64,000 nt of DNA from Tillus elongatus (lineage: Eukaryota > Arthropoda > Insecta > Coleoptera > Cleridae). Location: the NCBI GenBank assembly GCA_964006375.1, contig OZ023265.1, positions 13,000,993 to 13,064,992 of the forward strand. Reading direction: 5' to 3'. The translations under genes and the position numbers were made by a program. Below the pieces are notes generated by a model, which worked only from the letters and a program-made list of their open reading frames with translations, had not been told where the DNA came from and did not search any database. Below are positions 5,487 to 45,344 of the stretch, one piece after another. Positions within the stretch are counted from its first letter, which is position 1. The number at the start of each line of letters is the position of its first letter.

Positions 5487-6885
5487 TTGGACAAGTTGTG
5501 GCATCTTGTTTTTACATCTTAACAAATCCGCCACTTCTACATTATTTCTGATATTTGTGATATAAGTGATTTCCTACCCAACCCAACCATAGATTTAGTT
5601 TTGCTTGTTAAAACCATTATCACATTATTTCGTGTTTTTTCTTGTAGAAAACTTATTTTTATTGTTTTGGGTATTTTTATGTCCCTTAGCAGAAAACTTT
5701 CACTGGTTATATACTTTTTTTTTTAAATCATTGAAAACCCCTTTAATCTTGCACACTCCCTTGGTCTCCTGGAGGTACAAAACAATTTTACCTCCACATC
5801 GTCACAACGTGTATCGTTATCGATGACAGAAATTAAAATATTTTTTTGCCAAACGTAAAAAAAAAGTTTCAAAACATAAAAATGATGATTCCGGAACGAA
5901 TATTTTTTGTCGGTCTGTACGTCTGTCTGTTAGTAGACACAATAACTTTCGAACGAATTGAAATATCGTCTTCTGGTATAGAGTTATCACGCGACAAATG
6001 AACGGTCCGTTTTTGGGTGAAATAGCTCCAGATGAGAGGGAGGTGGCCAATTGGTGAAAATTGACATTTTTTTCGTTAAAGCTCGAGTAAAATAACGTTT
6101 CAGGGTTTGCCTAAACTTTCAAGTTCATCACTAATCTGGCATTCTGTGATGAAATTGAAGTAGGGGTTGAATATGAGAGGGTGCAATATGAATTTAGTTT
6201 GAAAGAAAATGACATTAGATTATTAAGAACGTAGAGTTTAGTTCTTCCCTTTATTCTTTTCATCATGAAATTCACATTTCATAACAACATTATAATGGGG
6301 TTAGGGTTGATAGTGTGAATTTAGCACTTGTGTGGTGTCCCAAAAGTAACAGAATGGCAGAATAACTTGGAAAGTTCAAGTCGCGGAAAAAAAGTACCAG
6401 GCAAGAGCTCGATGATATTCGCTGGCTATCTGATTTGGATTTAATCTTGATGATGACCTTCAAGGTCTAGTAAAGTCAATTTCATATTTTTGGATGGAAA
6501 CCCATAATTTTGATTTCGGAAATCGAAAGACCAAAAAAATTTCACGTCCAGATAAGACCTCGGGCAGTGACCTTTCAACGTCATCTGAAAGTCGAACGCT
6601 TGTATACAAAAAAGTGTAACAATAACTCAAAAGTTCGAGTCGAGGAGGGGAAAAAGGCCAAAGAGCTCCAGAATATTTTCTTGACTATCTAAACGTGACC
6701 TTGCATTTGAGTTTCACGATGACCTTCAAGGTCAATTCTTTGTAATAAAGCCATGGACCCCAAATTCATTTCATGAAAGTCTTTCTGTGGAGAGTCGCTT
6801 ATCATAGCGATTTGGAAGTTAACTTCAATTTGCAGCATCATTTTTTTTTTATCACAACTCAGCTTTCTTTATTAGAGCTAGGAAA
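5487..6885. other. Non-coding, old interspersed repeats
   Basis: No coding region recognised. Between about 6335 and 6760 a segment is present twice in diverged form: each copy runs from a CTTGGAAAGTTC/CTCAAAAGTTCGAGTC start through an AGAGCTC block to GATGACCTTCAAGGTC. It looks like an old interspersed repeat with an internal duplication. A short GTCTGT run lies near 5915-5935. Confidence 0.4.
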
Positions 6886-7087
6886 ATTGTGAGATATATG
6901 ACAGGGTCGATATCTCGGTGCGGAATCAGGTAGTATGTCATCACGACAGCACCAAATAACACAACATGTAAATAGAGACTGTGTACACCCAACTAACAAT
7001 TGTTGTAAATTGTCAGCTCTGGCCCATTTCTTCCCTAATACCGGTACAATGTATGTAAAGCTAGATTTATTCTCACCATAATTCGAA

Positions 7088-7128
7088 ACGCAGACCGGTT
7101 TCGCTCTTATTAGAGATCGTCAGTGCGC
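7088..7128 (-). ncRNA. Hammerhead ribozyme-like core, locus 1 copy 1
   Basis: Read on the minus strand: stem I strand GCGCA, CUGACGA, a stem II hairpin with an AAUA loop, GAAA, a palindromic stem III (ACCGGU), C as cleavage-site base, then UGCGU closing stem I. All invariant core bases are present. One stem II closing pair is lost (U opposite C). The 6-nt palindromic stem III cannot fold in cis, so it would act as a dimer or between neighbouring units. Confidence 0.75.
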
Positions 7129-7396
7129 TACACCAATTACAGCGAGAGCACACCTATAAAGTAATACAGCTAAGCCAACCAGCCTACAAGAACATTGTGA
7201 TGTACGACAGGGTCGCCATTTCGGTGCGGCACCAGGTAGTATGTTGTCACGACAACTCCAATTAACACAAAATGTTATAAATAGAGACTGGGTACAGCCA
7301 ACTAACAATTGTTGTCAATTGTCAGCCCTGACCCATTTCATCCCTAATACCGGTACAATACATGTAAAGCTAGATGTATTCTCACTATAATTAGAA

Positions 7397-7437
7397 ACGC
7401 AGACCGGTCTCGCTCTTATTAGAGCTCGTCAGTGCGC
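7397..7437 (-). ncRNA. Hammerhead ribozyme-like core, locus 1 copy 2
   Basis: It has the same layout as copy 1, with a perfect five-pair stem II (GCUCU/AGAGC around AAUA), stem I GCGCA/UGCGU and palindromic ACCGGU. The conserved GAAA reads GAGA, which alters an invariant core A, so catalysis is probably lost. Confidence 0.65.
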
Positions 7438-7707
7438 TATACCAATTACAGCGAGAACACACCTATAAAGTAATACAGCTAAGGCAACCAGCCTACTAGA
7501 ACATTGTGAGATGTACGACAGGGTCGCCATTTCGGTGCGGCACCAGGTAGTATGTTGTCACGACAGCTCCAATTAACACAAAATGTTATAAATAGAGACT
7601 GGGTACAGCCAACTAACAATTGTTGTCAATTGTCAGCCCTGGCCCATTTTTTCCATAATACTGGGACAATATATGTAAGGCTAGATGTATTCTCACTATA
7701 ATTAGAA

Positions 7708-7748
7708 ATGCAAAGCGGTTTCGCCCTGATTAAAGCTCGTCAGTGCGC
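7708..7748 (-). ncRNA. Hammerhead ribozyme-like core, locus 1 copy 3
   Basis: CUGACGA and GAAA are intact and stem II pairs with two G-U wobbles (GCUUU/AGGGC). Stem III has drifted from the palindrome (ACCGCU) and the stem I 3' strand is UGCAU. Probably a decayed copy. Confidence 0.6.
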
Positions 7749-7765
7749 TATACCAATTACAACTC

Positions 7766-9108
7766 GAGAATTAGAAACTTAAAATCTGACACATGGAATT
7801 ACTAAAATTCATTTCCATAGCTTGTGTAGTTTTAAGAATATAATTATTTATATAACTACAATAATGTCTAAATTTTTAGAAAATGCTGTTTCTCGGGAAA
7901 ATTGTGAGAATGCAGTGGAGGCTTTGAAAAAAAAGTGACGAACTGCAACAAAAACATCCTCACGCTCAAGTAATAGGTAATATACATAAATAATCTTGAC
8001 AGGCGCTTTAGATTTCAGTAGAATCAAGAGCTCCTGATAAAAAAATGCCTAATTTTGTAACTTTCCTAATGCTGCAACTGAAAAATATTCAATTCATTAG
8101 CTCACCTACAGAGTTTTCAACTAAATGTAACAGTTGAGTAACCTTGAGTTAAAATTACAGAATTAAAAAAATATTTACTACAGACAGACGTGCGTCTGTG
8201 CACTTATCCGTGATGAATTTACGACGCTGCCTTCGTTCATTATCAATTTAAGAGATTTTTCTTAGTTGATGTTATTCTGTGGATTCTCTGGAAACTCAGC
8301 GTGATGAGCACGTTTATGTGTTCCAGTTGACAAGAAAGCGGTCTAAATTTACTCGGTTATGGCTGGGTGCTGTCAAGTGTAGTTTTAATGGGTAGACGGT
8401 TTTCAGGAAAATATCGTATAATTAGATTTAAAATATGAAACAGCGGGCGGTTTAACAGTTCCATTACTGTAGTCTCTTAAAAGACATTTAGATACATTCT
8501 GGAATACTAAAATAAATAAACTTACTGTGCAATTCCTAAGAACTTCACGTTTACTCCCGATGGTGGTTTATGTAACACTTACCTGAAACAAGAAAAGTAT
8601 ATAATTAGTACATATATTAATAAACTAAACAATACATATAGTTCCACAAACAAAAAAGCATTATATACAGGTGATTTAAATTCGAGCGTCCCCATGAAGA
8701 GGTCTGTTATTATCGAGAACTCTTAGTGCAGAGCGGGTTATTTTTTCTCTTTCGATGACTGTTTTTCAAATAATTATGTATAGTTTTAAAGAGTCAACGA
8801 TATATCCTTTTTCTGGGAGGTGAGAATGTAAATTATGTCTGCATTTGTACATACTAGGTGACCATTTGAAATCTTATAGCGATTTTGTTGACAATCGCAA
8901 CACCAAAATCTTAAATTACAAAGGTGTTCAAATATCACATCATTTTGGAGCTGGTATAAATCTCTTTTCAATTTTAAGCAGTGGGTTCTGCGAAATTGGT
9001 TTCTAAAAGTGAGCAATTTGTTTACCAAAAACTTCAGTTTATTAAATGGTCAAAATTGCGGCCGCCGGTCTTCACACGATAGTACAAGTTTTGTTCAAAA
9101 TGTCGGCG
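7766..9108. other. Non-coding stretch
   Basis: No coding region or recognised repeat. The AT content is high and no long open frame with a family signature is present on either strand. Confidence 0.45.
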
Positions 9109-19476: not shown

Positions 19477-21855
19477 TTTTTTTTTTTTTTTTGTTCCCTC
19501 AGGGCTCGTCCGCGGCCTTGCCGCCCCGATAGCACCGCAACCCTTGGTTGATTGTGCGTACCCCTAGTCTTACTCCACCCATTCCAAAATCACTGTGCCT
19601 TGAACTAGTCTGCACAGCGATTGGTAGGGTGAAGTTTTATATTGCTCTGTCTCCGGTCTAGAGTGACCGTAGATCAGTTGTCTTTTCCGGTCCAGAGCTA
19701 TACACTCGCACAAGATGTGCTGGGCTGATTCCTCCCCCTCGCCGCAGAGTCTGCATGCGAGGTCCCCTTCGAACCGCCCCATTTTATGTAGGTGTTTCTT
19801 GACGGCCATGTGTCCCGTCAAGAGACCTGTTGTGTTTCTGAGCTGTCCTCTGCTAAGGTTTAGCAGCTCCACAGCTCTCTTTGAACTGGGTCCGTCAATT
19901 ATTGACTTCCCATGTCTGAGCCCTGGACAGTCCGCCCAGTACACCTTGTGTTGGTTTCTGACCCAGGACTTAATGGCTCCCCTGGCAGTGCTCTTTGACA
20001 CGCCCAGAGCCGGTTCTGGTCCCATAAATGGTTCTGCTGACCCCCTCTTTGCGAGACTGTCAGCTTCTTCATTGCCTTTGACCCCCGAGTGACCCGGCAC
20101 CCAGATGAGGGTCACCTCATTCTGCCCAGCCAGGTCGCTCGTCTCGTCTCGGCACTCACTCACCAGCCAGGAATTTACCCGTGGGCTACTTAGTGCCTTA
20201 AGGGCTGCCTGGCTGTCTGTGGCTATGAGGATCCGCTTGTTGGTGTAGCCCCTCCTCTTGTTCTCCCGCACACAGTGCAGGATGGCGTACATCTCGGCCT
20301 GAAACACCGTTGCATGGGCTCCGAGGGAAATACTGTGACTTACCCTCGGTCCTTCCGAGTAAACACCTGCCCCCGTCCCACGCTCCCCGCCAGATCCGTC
20401 CGTGAACCAGACGAGCGCGTCCCGTGGTATGCCCGGTGTCTCCTCCCGCCATGCCCCGCGATCAGGGATTTCCACTGTGAAGTTGTTTTCCCTGCACATT
20501 CGCGGGCTCGCGAAGTCTGACCTCATTTCAAGCATGGGTTCCTTCACGATCTCCTGAATTTTGCAGTGACCCCTGAAGCCTGGGTTGATCTTCAGTCTAC
20601 CATTGCAGGCTAGTCTGTATAGTCCTAGCCTGGCCTCTCCCATAATAACGAAGTGTAGGGGGGGTAGATCCAGCAACACCTCCATGGCGGCTGTTGGGGT
20701 TGAAGACATGGCCCCTGTGATGCCTAGGCAAGCCATCCTTTGGATCTTGCCTAGTTTTTGTTTGGCACTGGATTGTGTCACCTTAGGCCACCAGACCAGT
20801 GCCGCATATGTTAACGATGGTCTGACCACCCTTGTGTACAGCCAGTGGGCCATACTAGGTCTTAGTCCCCACGTTTTTCCATATAGCCGCCTAGTGACGG
20901 CTAAGGTCATGACTGCCTTACGCAGTATTTTTTCAATGTGACCATTCCAGGTTAGCTTAGAGTCCAATACGACCCCAAGATATTTTACCTCCCTGGCCAT
21001 TGGAACGCTCCTACCGTATAGAGTGAGAGTTCTGTGGCTTTCACACTTCCTCCTCCTCGTAAACGGCACGACGGTTGCTTTCTCGGGGCTCACCCCGAGC
21101 CCTTGATCAACCGTCCACCCTTCCACCACTTTCAGTGCAGTCTGCATACGCTCCCACACTGCCTGTGTGACCTTTCCTCGGACTATGATGACAATGTCGT
21201 CCGCATAGCCCTGTACCTCATACCCCCCTCCCGAGAGCCTCCCCAGCAGGCCGTCCACGACTAGACACCAGAGCAAGGGAGACAGAACGCTCCCCTGCGG
21301 ACACCCCGCCGCGACCCCCGCCAGCAGAGTCCCTCCCGCGAGTGAGGTGAACACCGCCCTGTCCCTGAGCATGGAACCGATCCACCTGCAGCAGGTCTCC
21401 TCTATTCCACGCTCCCGGGCAGCTGCCAGAACCGATCCGAACGAGGTGTTGCTAAAGGCCCCCTCTATGTCTAGGAAGGCCCCCAGCGCCACCTCCTTGT
21501 TCTCCAGCGTATTCTCCAGTTTCAGCACCAGTTGGTGCAGTGCTGTTTCTGTTGAGAATCCTGCTCTGTATGCATATTGTCCGCAGTGTAGAGGATATGC
21601 TTCCAGTACACCGCCCCTAATGTGCCGGTCGAGCAGTTTTTCCACTGTTTTCAGCAAGAAGGACATGAGACTTATTGGCCTCAGGGACTTTGCCTGGTCT
21701 GTTGGACGCCCAGGTTTAGGAATAAATACAACCCTGGCCAGTCTCCATGCCCTCGGAATGTACCCCAGAGCCAGGCTGGCCCTCATAATGAGGGTAAGCA
21801 CCGGCGCCAGTATATCTATCCCCTGTTGGAGCATGATGGGCATTATTCCATCAAA
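19477..21855 (-). mobile_element. Family R non-LTR retrotransposon, 5'-truncated
   Basis: A 2379-bp minus-strand insertion. The tail is a 16-T run at 19477-19492 (poly-A on the element strand), and it is flanked by a perfect 12-bp target duplication. It encodes RT, RNase H and a C-terminal CCHC finger in one open frame of 757 codons; the endonuclease and ORF1 are lost by 5' truncation. The domain order RT-RNase H-CCHC places it in the I/R1/LOA group; I cannot choose the clade. The 3' UTR starts with a GC-rich inverted repeat (GGCGGCAAGGCCGC), shared by all R copies here, which may be the RT recognition hairpin. Confidence 0.92.
19570..21843 (-). CDS. Reverse transcriptase-RNase H-CCHC polyprotein, truncated
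   Basis: C-terminal 757 codons of the ORF2 protein of an I/R1/LOA-type retrotransposon, uninterrupted. RT motifs are FLDIEGAF (residues 123-130, catalytic Asp), CPQGSVLSPLLW (181-192) and YADD (213-216). RNase H spans about 475-600, with all four acidic residues visible: D482 in FTDGSG, E517 in QAEMYA, D543 in ATDSQAA and D595 in NEEADSLAKR. A zinc-finger motif C697-x2-C700-x8-H709-x4-C714 follows. The protein would copy element RNA at a nicked target and degrade the template. The Met at 21843 is internal, since the frame stays open to the truncation point. The intact frame suggests a young copy. Confidence 0.92.
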   Translation of the reverse strand: MPIMLQQGIDILAPVLTLIMRASLALGYIPRAWRLARVVFIPKPGRPTDQAKSLRPISLMSFLLKTVEKLLDRHIRGGVLEAYPLHCGQYAYRAGFSTETALHQLVLKLENTLENKEVALGAFLDIEGAFSNTSFGSVLAAARERGIEETCCRWIGSMLRDRAVFTSLAGGTLLAGVAAGCPQGSVLSPLLWCLVVDGLLGRLSGGGYEVQGYADDIVIIVRGKVTQAVWERMQTALKVVEGWTVDQGLGVSPEKATVVPFTRRRKCESHRTLTLYGRSVPMAREVKYLGVVLDSKLTWNGHIEKILRKAVMTLAVTRRLYGKTWGLRPSMAHWLYTRVVRPSLTYAALVWWPKVTQSSAKQKLGKIQRMACLGITGAMSSTPTAAMEVLLDLPPLHFVIMGEARLGLYRLACNGRLKINPGFRGHCKIQEIVKEPMLEMRSDFASPRMCRENNFTVEIPDRGAWREETPGIPRDALVWFTDGSGGERGTGAGVYSEGPRVSHSISLGAHATVFQAEMYAILHCVRENKRRGYTNKRILIATDSQAALKALSSPRVNSWLVSECRDETSDLAGQNEVTLIWVPGHSGVKGNEEADSLAKRGSAEPFMGPEPALGVSKSTARGAIKSWVRNQHKVYWADCPGLRHGKSIIDGPSSKRAVELLNLSRGQLRNTTGLLTGHMAVKKHLHKMGRFEGDLACRLCGEGEESAQHILCECIALDRKRQLIYGHSRPETEQYKTSPYQSLCRLVQGTVILEWVE

Positions 21856-22532
21856 TTGGCAGTAGCCTTAGCTATAGAGTTTATTGTTTAATGGTATATA
21901 ATTTTTGTCGAATTTTCGTAAAAAATCAATAAAGCTCAATATATTCGTTATTATACAAGATATGAAAAAATATTGTATACATTAATTATACGGTGTTTTG
22001 AGCTACACCTTAAAAAATTATTGCGACAATCACAGGGTGGCCCATAAGTCGTTGGTGATACAAATAAATTATTTTTTTGTCGAAAACGCCTTATTTTTTT
22101 GCATTTTCCATCGAAATATAATGCATGTTTGTAAGTTAAGAAATTCTGGAGGCAGCAAGTGCGTTGTGGTTGCGAATTTTGATTAAATGCTTCATATTTG
22201 AAAAGCTCAATTTGCTATTTACCTATAAGGTTGACCAAGAAACGGATTTTTTCAGTAACACTTTTGGTTTACTTTTGGAAATTTCTGTACGTTTTCAAAC
22301 AATCAAGTTATTTTGATGAAACATGGCACATTGTTTTTACTATATATGTTATACTGGTAACCAAAATTGATGTCTGCTTTCTTAAAAAGAAAACACACAT
22401 ATTTGCAATAAAAACATTTTTATGAAAATTCACTACCATAACGCACTTGCTGCGTCCCGAGATTTTATTGGCGTCACTCTTTATAACGATGTAATAACCG
22501 TTGGTATTAGCGAATTAGCCTAAAATAAATAA

Positions 22533-27500: not shown

Positions 27501-27590
27501 TCGTCGAAAAGCTTTTAATGAATAATTATATCGTGGCAGGTGGGTTATTACCTTTATATAAGGCTAAATGTATTCTCACAACAATTAGAA

Positions 27591-27631
27591 CCGTATACCG
27601 ATTTCGCTCAAATTAGAGCTCGTCAGTACAG
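27591..27631 (-). ncRNA. Hammerhead ribozyme-like core, locus 2 copy 1
   Basis: CUGUA, CUGACGA, stem II GCUC/GAGC, GAAA, then a drifted stem III (AUCGGU), A at the cleavage position and UACGG. Stem I pairs over five positions with one wobble. The core bases are intact; only the palindrome is damaged. Confidence 0.68.
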
Positions 27632-27910
27632 CATACTAATTGCAGCGAAAATACACCTATAAAGTAATACGACTATGATAGCCAGCCTTCCAACACTAAG
27701 TGAGTGATGAGACACGAACTAATATGCCGCCACCTAGTTGCGGAACCAAGTAGTATGTTGTCACGCCAGCTCCAAATAACACAAAGTGTTAAAAAATAGA
27801 GACTGTATTCAACCAACTAACAATTTAGTAAATTGTCAGTCCTGGCCCATTTCTACCCTAATATAGGGGCAAATTATGTAAGGCTAGATGTATTCTCACA
27901 ACAATTAGAA

Positions 27911-27951
27911 CCGTAGACCGGTTTCGCTCTAATTAGATCTCGTCAGTACGG
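27911..27951 (-). ncRNA. Hammerhead ribozyme-like core, locus 2 copy 2
   Basis: CCGUA, CUGACGA, stem II with one mismatch in five pairs (GAUCU/AGAGC), GAAA, perfect palindromic ACCGGU, C17 and UACGG. Stem I is a perfect five-pair helix whose sequence differs from locus 1 by compensatory changes. Together with 7088-7128, one of the best candidates for activity. Confidence 0.75.
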
Positions 27952-28294
27952 TATACTAATTGCAGCGAAAATACACCTATAAAGTAATACGGCTATGGTA
28001 GCCAGCCTCCCAAAACTAAGTGAGATGTAAGAGAATTTACTAAATTGTTAGTTGGTTGTATACAGTCTCAATTTTTTACATTCTGTGTTATTTGGAGCTG
28101 CCGTGAGAACATACTACTTGGTTACGCAACGAGGGGGCGACACGTGTAAAAGCGTAAAAACACGAACTAACGTGCCGTCACCTAGTTGCGGAACCAAGTA
28201 GTATGTTGTCACGCCAGCTCCAAATAACACAAAGTGTTAAAAAATTGAGACTGTATACAACCAACTAACAATTTAGTAAATTGTCATATATATT

Positions 28295-30646: not shown

Positions 30647-31048
30647 TAAAAAAGCCAAAGCATCAGAGAAAGGGTCTATTTGAAATGACTTTTCTGTAAA
30701 TGTTTTTAGTGAAATGAAGGATGATGACGGTTGAACCTGAAACTTAAGCGTTTGCAGAACACTCTTCTGCCGCATTTTCTTAACATAATCGTATTTGTTT
30801 TAGGTTGTTTGCTTAAATGTTGCCAAGTTTGACGTTTCAAATCGCGACTTTGATGCTTTGAGGAAAACCCCAAATTCTTTTCTTTAAGTGCTACTGGCAT
30901 CTAGGACGAAACAAGGAACTTAGTAAGATTATTGATTATTGCTGGTATAACACACTGATCAGCTCAAATAAGAGCGAAACTAATATGTGATGAAATTTTT
31001 TCAAAATTCAAAAGACGGGATCTCCTCAATAGTGATTTTTTTTACACC
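30647..31048 (-). repeat. Family H fragments with decayed hammerhead between
   Basis: Reverse-oriented H sequence covers 30647-30900 (AAAGCATCAGAGAAAGGGTC to the CCCCAAATTCTTTTCTTTAA block). After a ~110-bp gap holding the hammerhead relic, the H start appears at about 31000-31048 (AAAAGACGGGATCTCCTCAATAG). Confidence 0.7.
30951..30989 (+). ncRNA. Decayed hammerhead-like core on plus strand
   Basis: CACA, CUGAUCA (one core change from CUGANGA), stem II GCUC/GAGC with a long A-rich loop, GAAAC, then a disrupted stem III and UGUG that can still pair with CACA. Same family as 7088-7128 in opposite orientation, apparently a solitary relic. Confidence 0.5.
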
Positions 31049-44495: not shown

Positions 44496-45273
44496 CCGAG
44501 GTTGTACATAGTGACCGATAACTACTGAGGTCGTAGCCTTGTGTATGAGCAAGTTACGTAGCCGTGTATTCTGCTCGTCAAAGGGACCACCGCTTCAGCT
44601 GTCACTCCCGCTTATAATTCAATGTTGGGCACATACATGAACTCATAAAAGACATGGTTTCGTCAAAACTTACAGCTTGGCGAAGTGGGACTACTCCCTG
44701 GTCTAGGTGAAGAAACATACATACCTACAAGTTCAAGAGCAGATAAGTAAAATACTACTTTTCATGTAAGAATCACTGAAGAGTTTGTAATGTGCTGACG
44801 GGTCGCTTCTGATGCTAATTTTAGGTGTTCGTGAGAGTTTGTCACCATTATTCTTTGTACAATATGCTAATGTTACTGTACAACAAGCCACAGATAGAAA
44901 CATATAATATATACAACAGCAAACAATGATTAACGTACCTCTCAGGTTTCCAACGAACTGTGAGAATGGAGAATAGCAGAATAAATAAAATCTATAGATG
45001 TTGAGTATATGGTGCTCGTGGTGTGGACAATAAATATTGACACAATACATAACATTGTCGTATATGAGATTACAGATAGCCGTGATATATGGTCACAGCC
45101 TAACATTGCTGATATGGCGTTGCTCTAAATTCTAAATTGCGCTTATATCGCAGATATGGACAAAACCATTACACATACAGGCATTTAAAAGATTTCTTCA
45201 TTCTCGATTGGAAAACGCTATGGTTTTCATATTTACTACAAATAAGCACATTTGGAGAACCCGAATTTAAAAA
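44496..45273. other. Non-coding stretch
   Basis: No coding region recognised. The 105-codon minus-strand frame at 44733-45050 shows no family signature. Confidence 0.35.
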
Positions 45274-45315
45274 ACCTGACGATCGTTTCGCTAACCAAGT
45301 TAGCGTCATCAGAAG
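45274..45315 (-). other. Hammerhead-like motif of second type
   Basis: Minus strand: CTGATGA, one extra C, a six-pair hairpin (GCTAAC/GTTAGC), GAAA, then palindrome ACGATCGT and C. As at 33650 an extra base separates the core from stem II. It lies just upstream of a family J copy and probably marks the end of an unrelated retroelement relic. Confidence 0.5.
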
Positions 45316-45344
45316 ATGAATAATTCTAAATATCTTATATCCTC

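Follow-up and report, generated by a model that had tools for sequence, protein, structure and literature searches.

A dispersed hammerhead retrozyme family in Tillus elongatus whose paired 3′ ends resemble those of a resident Penelope-like element

Hammerhead cores and retrozyme arrays in the window

The window, by which we mean the whole 64-kb stretch of DNA analysed (G000:C4:13000993-13064992; the genome comprises 1.72 Gb in 30 contigs), contains five hammerhead cores, all on the minus strand, which are distributed to two loci and reside in tandem units of ~309-320 bp, with core-to-core spacings of 309, 311 and 320 bp. The core stretches given below are the matches of a model (R1) built from relatives, including four of the five window copies. 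Unit positions (u) are numbered from the first base 3′ of the cleavage site, and the window coordinates of locus 2 equal the position in L009 plus 26039. The features identified are as follows.

6882..7765, minus strand: locus 1 retrozyme array, subfamily 1; ~2.85 units of 309-311 bp, called from repeats (TRF 6882-7761, period 311)
7691..7776, minus strand: core copy 1 of locus 1; stem III drifted to ACCGCU, U at position 17; no Rfam match
7380..7463, minus strand: core copy 2 of locus 1; GAG for GAA; Rfam HH9 32.0 bits; predicted cleavage 3′ of 7402
7071..7154, minus strand: core copy 3 of locus 1; single stem II mismatch; Rfam HH9 20.7 bits; predicted cleavage 3′ of 7093
27555..28032, minus strand: main retrozyme block of locus 2, subfamily 2; ~1.49 units of 320 bp; 3′ end at site A (see below)
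27894..27977, minus strand: core of locus 2; single stem II mismatch; Rfam HH9 24.4 bits; predicted cleavage 3′ of 27916
27574..27657, minus strand: core of locus 2; stem III AUCGGU, A17; Rfam HH9 19.0 bits
28031..28145, plus strand: inverted partial unit of locus 2 (u79-u194), from inverted repeats I1-I3 and I5
28157..28286, minus strand: second partial unit of locus 2 in sense orientation (u78-u207)
45258..45329, minus strand: remnant of the 3′ region of a Penelope-like element (PLE), from homology to the sequence downstream of the PLE ORF in L076; minimal hammerhead-like motif of CUGAUGA, a hairpin and GAAACGAUCGU, read by eye

The five cores lie where the initial annotation had placed them and carry the letters that it reported, namely CUGACGA, a stem II hairpin and GAAA (GAGA in the copy at 7397), with stem III as ACCGGU, drifted to ACCGCU in the copy at 7708 and to AUCGGU in that at 27591. 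Reading of the sequence also bore out that every window copy has a flaw: the first stem II pair at 7088, GAG at 7397, stem III and U17 at 7708, stem III at 27591, and a stem II pair at 27911. The inner stem I pairs are GCGCA/UGCGU at locus 1 and CCGUA/UACGG at locus 2, as had been described, and the stem is longer than was then recognized: beyond the inner helix come an internal loop (UAUA/UU), an outer helix of 7 bp and then another of 6 bp. The 7-bp helix also covaries (UAAUUGG/CUAAUUA at locus 1 and CAAUUAG/CUAAUUG at locus 2).

The hammerhead assignment was upheld in part by an Rfam scan, in which Hammerhead_HH9 matched four of the five window cores (7380-7450, 32.0 bits; 27894-27964, 24.4 bits; 7071-7141, 20.7 bits; 27574-27644, 19.0 bits) and left the copy at 7708 unmatched. 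These matches are beyond chance, the best having an E-value of 4.2e-4 for 64 kb and 8.5e-6 for 1.3 kb, but none of the window's copies, the only retrozyme copies scanned, reached the family-specific gathering score of 52. The loose pattern CTGANGAN{8,24}GARA occurs 12 times in the window, compared with 3.28 expected, and none of 100 shuffles reached 12; five of the 12 occurrences are the cores.

The flaw in each window copy and the Rfam scores below the gathering threshold would suit a hammerhead resemblance that is due to chance or decay and has no function. This explanation is scarcely tenable when the genome-wide copies are considered. Every hammerhead rule (CUGANGA/GAA core, stem II hairpin, A15.1-U16.1, H17 and an open stem I) holds in 22 of the 85 cores scored, which remained from 121 extracted after 27 from duplicate or overlapping loci and nine with indels were dropped. 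The intact 35-nt core CTGACGAGCTCTAATTAGAGCGAAACCGGTCTACG occurs 1,496 times exactly in the genome, and its reversed control does not occur. Covariation and the conservation of the catalytic stretch, described next, also argue against chance or decay.

Among 79 distinct cores, standard pairs fill 93.6% of the pair cells, compared with 36-43% when the partners are slid. Double-sided changes affected 53 cells, compared with a mean of 17.7 after shuffling, and most of them lay at the stem I pairs 16-76, 27-67 and 30-64, with a double change in one sequence each at pairs 21-71 and 28-66 and none in stem II. Shuffled sets had at least as many pairs with double changes (5.2 versus 5 observed) and further pair types (26.6 versus 25), since most of the signal comes from a single split between the two subfamilies; the covariation thus appears to comprise few independent events. 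The covariation with retained pairing that had been noticed between the two loci is supported, and among genome-wide copies it corresponds mainly to this subfamily split. The subfamily majority units are 83% identical overall and 31/31 identical from CUGA to C17, the catalytic stretch. From these comparisons of sequence, identity as a type I hammerhead is supported, and we infer self-cleavage.

In the stem III palindrome ACCGGU, a single A-U pair is capped by a CCGG tetraloop. The proposal that it acts as a dimer fits a nearest-neighbour fold model in one respect, as two hammerheads sharing stem III lie ~9 kcal/mol below two monomer hammerheads, but not in another, as the best predicted folds of both the monomer and the dimer are other, non-hammerhead folds. 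Cleavage would probably occur as a dimer via the palindromic stem III.

Two other elements of the window were recorded. A sixth, decayed hammerhead-like motif is present as a single copy at 30930-31006 on the plus strand, with a CUGAUCA core and ACUAAU at the place of stem III; it scores 29.7 bits with model R1, a level also reached by opposite-strand mirror matches. At 19570-21867 on the minus strand, there is a 765-aa open frame of LINE type with RVT_1 and RNase H, and similar shorter frames occur elsewhere in the window.

A large dispersed family of short arrays

The genome-wide search for the ~310-bp unit that the initial annotation had proposed revealed a large dispersed family, with 10,828 and 7,702 first-look candidates in DNA searches with the two loci (40 scored each); the samples analysed are top similarity matches and hence non-random. 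Units are 309-320 bp long, form blocks of 0.22-3.48 units and contain one type I hammerhead each. The two majority units have GC contents of 0.425 and 0.434 (<50%) and no coding capacity, the longest stop-free frames over three laps being 47 and 86 aa; on reading the sequences, we noticed no LTR, PBS or PPT. Because no frame is long enough for a reverse transcriptase and a GIY-YIG domain, the element is not itself a PLE and can only be a possible client of one. One scan of viral contigs did not match the core pattern.

Metazoan non-LTR retrozymes have a type I hammerhead with an extended stem I and an internal loop, and consist of low-GC tandem units of 150-450 bp, from dimers upward (PMC7229834, in part); they generate target duplications, and insects are among the listed hosts (PMC7229834, Cervera and de la Pena 2020, in part). 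The present repeats resemble them in hammerhead type, unit size, low GC, tandem units and target duplications, and differ in belonging to a new sequence family. Judged by sequence features, they appear to be a metazoan non-LTR retrozyme, an ordinary kind of element, in agreement with the comparison to retrozymes made earlier. The term ‘satellite’, which had also been applied, is not the best one, as the 24 fully fetched loci are short dispersed arrays spanning ~0.6-1.5 kb. These short dispersed arrays, together with the clustered 3′ ends and the target-site duplications found at some of them (see below), point to a mobile element.

Subfamily 1 presents a different picture. Pairwise matches show that its arrays in L003-L008 and in nine of 10 longer fetches (L039-L046 and L048) have surroundings in common that extend for ~2 kb and up to nearly 10 kb. 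These arrays were copied along with their surroundings, do not represent separate insertion events and were excluded when ends were counted. L039-L046 and L048 represent a composite of up to ~10 kb that is dispersed with a subfamily-1 array inside, and an ORF for a hAT C-terminal dimerisation domain is present in L043. Furthermore, L034, L033 and L032 (G000:C9:123344122, 123452835 and 123561548) are one array found three times at even steps of 108,713 bp, which reflects either tandem segmental duplication on a large scale or an effect of the assembly. Both the shared surroundings and these even ~109-kb steps on one contig would be expected of a tandem satellite that spreads through recombination or DNA duplication and carries the hammerhead as a passenger. 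This is nevertheless highly unlikely as an account of the family, because the subfamily-2 arrays (minus eight overlapping or duplicate ones) have differing flanks, clustered 3′ ends and, at some arrays, duplications.

Copy ends, inverted pairs and target duplications

Ends were examined in 34 arrays, 24 of them from fully fetched loci and 10 represented by a pair of end fragments each. Among 45 automatically called subfamily-2 3′ ends, 34 fell in two 12-nt windows, compared with a maximum of 16 in 1000 uniform simulations. After cleaning, 42 of 47 3′ ends were located at one of two sites: 24 at A (u34-48) and 18 at B (u202-232), with five elsewhere. Site A reads ..CUUACAUA (in a wider form ..CCUUACAUA) and lies 37-41 nt after the cleavage site, and site B reads ..CACUUA at ~u219-221 of 320. 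The 5′ ends are scattered: only one of the 12 resolved outer 5′ ends is in A and none is in B, and the same scatter is seen when inner ends are counted as well (36 block 5′ ends in all, 10 of them near u198-228). Subfamily 1 contributes the ends of window locus 1 (sense 3′ end at 6882, u214) and of the composite array (u211), both within the equivalent of B, and those of L002 at u36 (A) and u145; no CUUA is present at site B in this subfamily.

In 21 of the 34 arrays, 3′ ends occur on both outer sides. Sixteen outward-facing inverted pairs of subfamily 2, hereafter twins, were resolved: 12 combine A with B, three A with another position and one B with another position. None of the 16 has both ends in A or both in B, although twin L023 nearly has two A ends, at u41 and u52. 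When 100 of the 1,496 core places were listed, seven opposite-strand core neighbours lay within 1 kb of one another, and all seven, counted by eye, face outward.

Exact flanking duplications of at least 9 bp (10-16 bp) were found in 6 of 29 arrays and in 2 of 812 mismatched pairs, and all six arrays are twins. Thirteen single-orientation arrays had no duplication of at least 7 bp in that test; one such array, L038, shows a 9-bp duplication in a separate comparison. No clear AT preference was seen at the insertion sites: the value was 0.686 within 16 nt of the ends and 0.661 at distances of 100-900 nt, and 14 of 22 arrays had the higher value close to the ends. A Helitron or a cut-and-paste DNA element was set aside because the duplication lengths vary and the inverted pairs have outward 3′ ends.

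To judge from the open-access literature searched, the manner in which the copies end, i.e. the A and B ends and the pair rule, has not been described in print. This pairing is a signature that can be sought in other animals, and the retrozyme copies constitute an unusually informative record of insertion.

The resident Penelope-like element

Searches with GIY-YIG profiles gave 150 scored matches from 14,221 candidates, all over the cut-off and many of them partial. L076:1252-3162 (+), near the start of contig C1, the one match of the 150 in which the presence of a reverse transcriptase was checked, is an uninterrupted 637-aa ORF with RVT_1 (49.7 bits) and GIY-YIG (29.7 bits). A minimal hammerhead-like motif follows 576 bp after this ORF, with the palindromic stem III GAAACGAUCGU and then ..GUGUACUUA; it was read by eye and by pattern and has no match with either Rfam or model R1. 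Among the regions that lie downstream of four other GIY-YIG matches, three (L077, L078 and L080) are arranged likewise, and L079 differs in having a CUGAAGA..GAAA motif without such a tail.

The remnant at 45258-45329 of the window belongs to these 3′ regions, with ..GUGCUUA just beyond the match; it has no Rfam hammerhead match and folds no better than shuffles (z -1.0). An assignment of CTGATGA..GCGAAACGATCG at 45286-45312 (-) to the 3′ hairpin and tail of a LINE was dropped, as this stretch is homologous to the PLE 3′ regions.

Twenty PLE copy ends, a non-random set taken from 39 non-self matches by rank and as pair partners, are of two types: 12 short ends (..GUACUUA) and eight tail ends (..UUUUCACAUA), the tail being ~34 nt longer. 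Six of the 12 short ends share a further UCAU and four of the eight tail ends a further GUG, and the ends vary by 0-4 nt. That all 39 non-self matches end at query positions 128-135 was not counted as evidence of independent ends because the query copy ends there. Outward-facing PLE pairs were also present (five seen), and the four fetched all combine one short and one tail end. Their shared flanks are 9 bp (4-5 nt off the ends), 11 bp, 13 bp and 14 bp (a TA repeat), and the 11- and 13-bp duplications directly abut ..ACUUA and ..CACAUA.

The retrozyme and the PLE agree in pair rule, outward layout and duplication lengths. Their 3′ regions share no alignable homology beyond short end motifs and one 9-mer, a match equalled in 23 of 2000 shuffles. 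Among all 4-mers, CUUA explains the most retrozyme 3′ ends (38 of 47 within -1..+8, a zone covering 9.4% of positions). The 5-mer pair ACUUA/ACAUA, a match noticed after the fact, accounts for 25 of the 47 ends while covering 5.6% of positions. Among 34,491 such pairs it ranks 20th, and the top twelve consist of overlapping words at the same sites.

The two sites were also located on predicted circular folds of the majority units. In that of subfamily 2, u32-35 pair with u228-231, and u41 pairs with u221, these being the two commonest end positions. In that of subfamily 1, the paired stretches are u32-36/u218-222 and u41-45/u208-212, and u214 lies in the intervening loop. When the one subfamily-2 unit of the window was folded by itself, the A/B helix did not appear. 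As A and B face one another on the predicted rod, one bound complex could offer both sites.

Mobilization of the retrozyme by a LINE, through target-primed reverse transcription and twin priming, is also to be considered. Scattered 5′ ends, variable 7-16-bp duplications and 5′-inverted copies are LINE-like too, and the window holds the RNase H-bearing reverse transcriptase frame noted above, which is not of PLE type. Twin priming by a LINE would place the second 3′ end at varying positions, whereas both A and B are used in 12 of 16 twins. In addition, the PLE copies, the only ones whose ends were compared, show the same two-ended layout in four of four fetched pairs. A LINE is thus an unlikely helper, and the resident PLE is preferred.

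Proposed copying mechanism and comparison with known systems

As the full best explanation, to which we assign a probability of roughly 0.72, a non-autonomous retrozyme is copied from both DNA ends by the machinery of the resident PLE. This explanation draws on the conservation of the ribozyme, on 3′ ends that cluster and 5′ ends that scatter, on the A+B rule and the target duplications, and on the same layout in the PLE; ribozyme activity, RNA circles and the PLE as the enzyme are what we infer. Transcripts would self-cleave at the type I hammerhead, most likely as dimers, to yield ~310-320-nt RNAs that, by analogy with the retrozyme literature, could be circularised. The PLE reverse transcriptase would start inside the retrozyme RNA at sites A and B. 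A staggered cut would provide two DNA ends, of which, in full events, one would prime at A and the other at B, each copying the RNA for 0.2 to 3.5 units. Joining of the two cDNAs 5′ to 5′ would then produce an outward-facing inverted pair with a 7-16-bp target duplication, and one-sided events would result in a single tandem array. Going a step further, the two entry sites may imitate the short and tail ends of the PLE, such that the PLE protein, perhaps as a dimer, primes both from one break and laps the circle, the arrays and A+B twins being the record of this; we would put the odds of this extension slightly above even.

A circular template is likely. Six diagnostic sites agree within blocks at 0.79, compared with 0.57 when permuted (17 pairs; none of 5000 permutations as high). 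This is weakened by the unit distances, which differ only slightly within and between arrays (0.069 and 0.083, respectively), and by array L016, which mixes two unit types; the near-equal distances and this mixture do not favour one circle per array. The same two observations would suit an uncleaved linear multi-unit transcript as the template, the hammerhead being dispensable for insertion, and a published PLE inserts in vitro with a catalytically dead hammerhead (PMC11167929, in part). A linear template is conceivable, albeit doubtful, in view of the agreement of diagnostic sites within blocks and of the presence of blocks of up to 3.48 units: linear rounds would lose the units 3′ of A or B and truncate the 5′ side, so that the number of units per array could only fall. 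The conservation of all 31 positions of the catalytic stretch between the subfamilies also argues against a dispensable hammerhead.

The preferred reading, copying by the PLE, has precedents in published PLEs. With one PLE protein, reverse transcription begins at two adjacent internal sites, both strands are cut and extended, and genomic copies of that PLE end at its two start sites (PMC11167929, in part). Penelope copies include inverted head-to-head pLTRs with 8-10-bp duplications and a tail on one pLTR, and a foreign gene has been mobilised by Penelope pLTR sequences (PMC3846280, in part). The present system is similar to those described in these accounts (PMC11167929 and PMC3846280, each in part) in having a hammerhead near the start sites, two sites at which reverse transcription would start internally, proposed extension of both strands, outward inverted pairs, short duplications and one tail. 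Unlike a PLE, the retrozyme lacks an ORF of that size, and its two sites are ~180 nt apart, compared with ~34 nt in the resident PLE; the AT-rich target preference of the published PLE (PMC11167929, in part) was not seen for the retrozyme.

In animals, retrozymes are recognized as hammerhead repeats that give rise to circular RNA, and the enzyme that copies them back into DNA has so far only been proposed. A PLE as the helper was put forward in 2020 from co-occurrence and shared features (PMC7229834 and PMC7761336, each in part), and a review of that year states, in its account of animal retrozymes, that their repeats show no conserved motif that would reveal the helper (PMC7761336, in part). 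Unlike the retrozymes of that account, those described here have two clustered 3′ ends and paired insertions, which point to the resident PLE. Since these ends are shared with the PLE in layout and motif, the helper can be tested with purified PLE protein and retrozyme RNA. If the proposed mechanism is true, it would supply the missing helper and the insertion mechanism of animal retrozymes, and the retrozyme could serve as a naturally occurring template from which PLE enzymes insert small RNAs.

Among other hammerhead repeats, HHR_Amex1 of the axolotl likewise has one stem III pair and a palindromic tetraloop; its units are ~330-350 nt long, and it works better as dimers (PMC7229834, in part). 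The present family differs from the amphibian repeats in host and sequence and in forming short arrays with inverted pairs. pDo500 of Dolichopoda is similarly an insect tandem repeat with a hammerhead and compensatory changes, and differs, as far as described in PMC2837043 (in part), in its larger unit (~500 bp by name) and in a stem III that pairs within one strand.

Two minor observations concern the sequences surveyed. Within one retrozyme copy (L037:1184-1267), a short repeat resembling CCGTACTGTA has been expanded at stem I. TCAGG-type repeats, the telomere repeat typical of beetles, are present on six of seven contig ends (five starts and one end).
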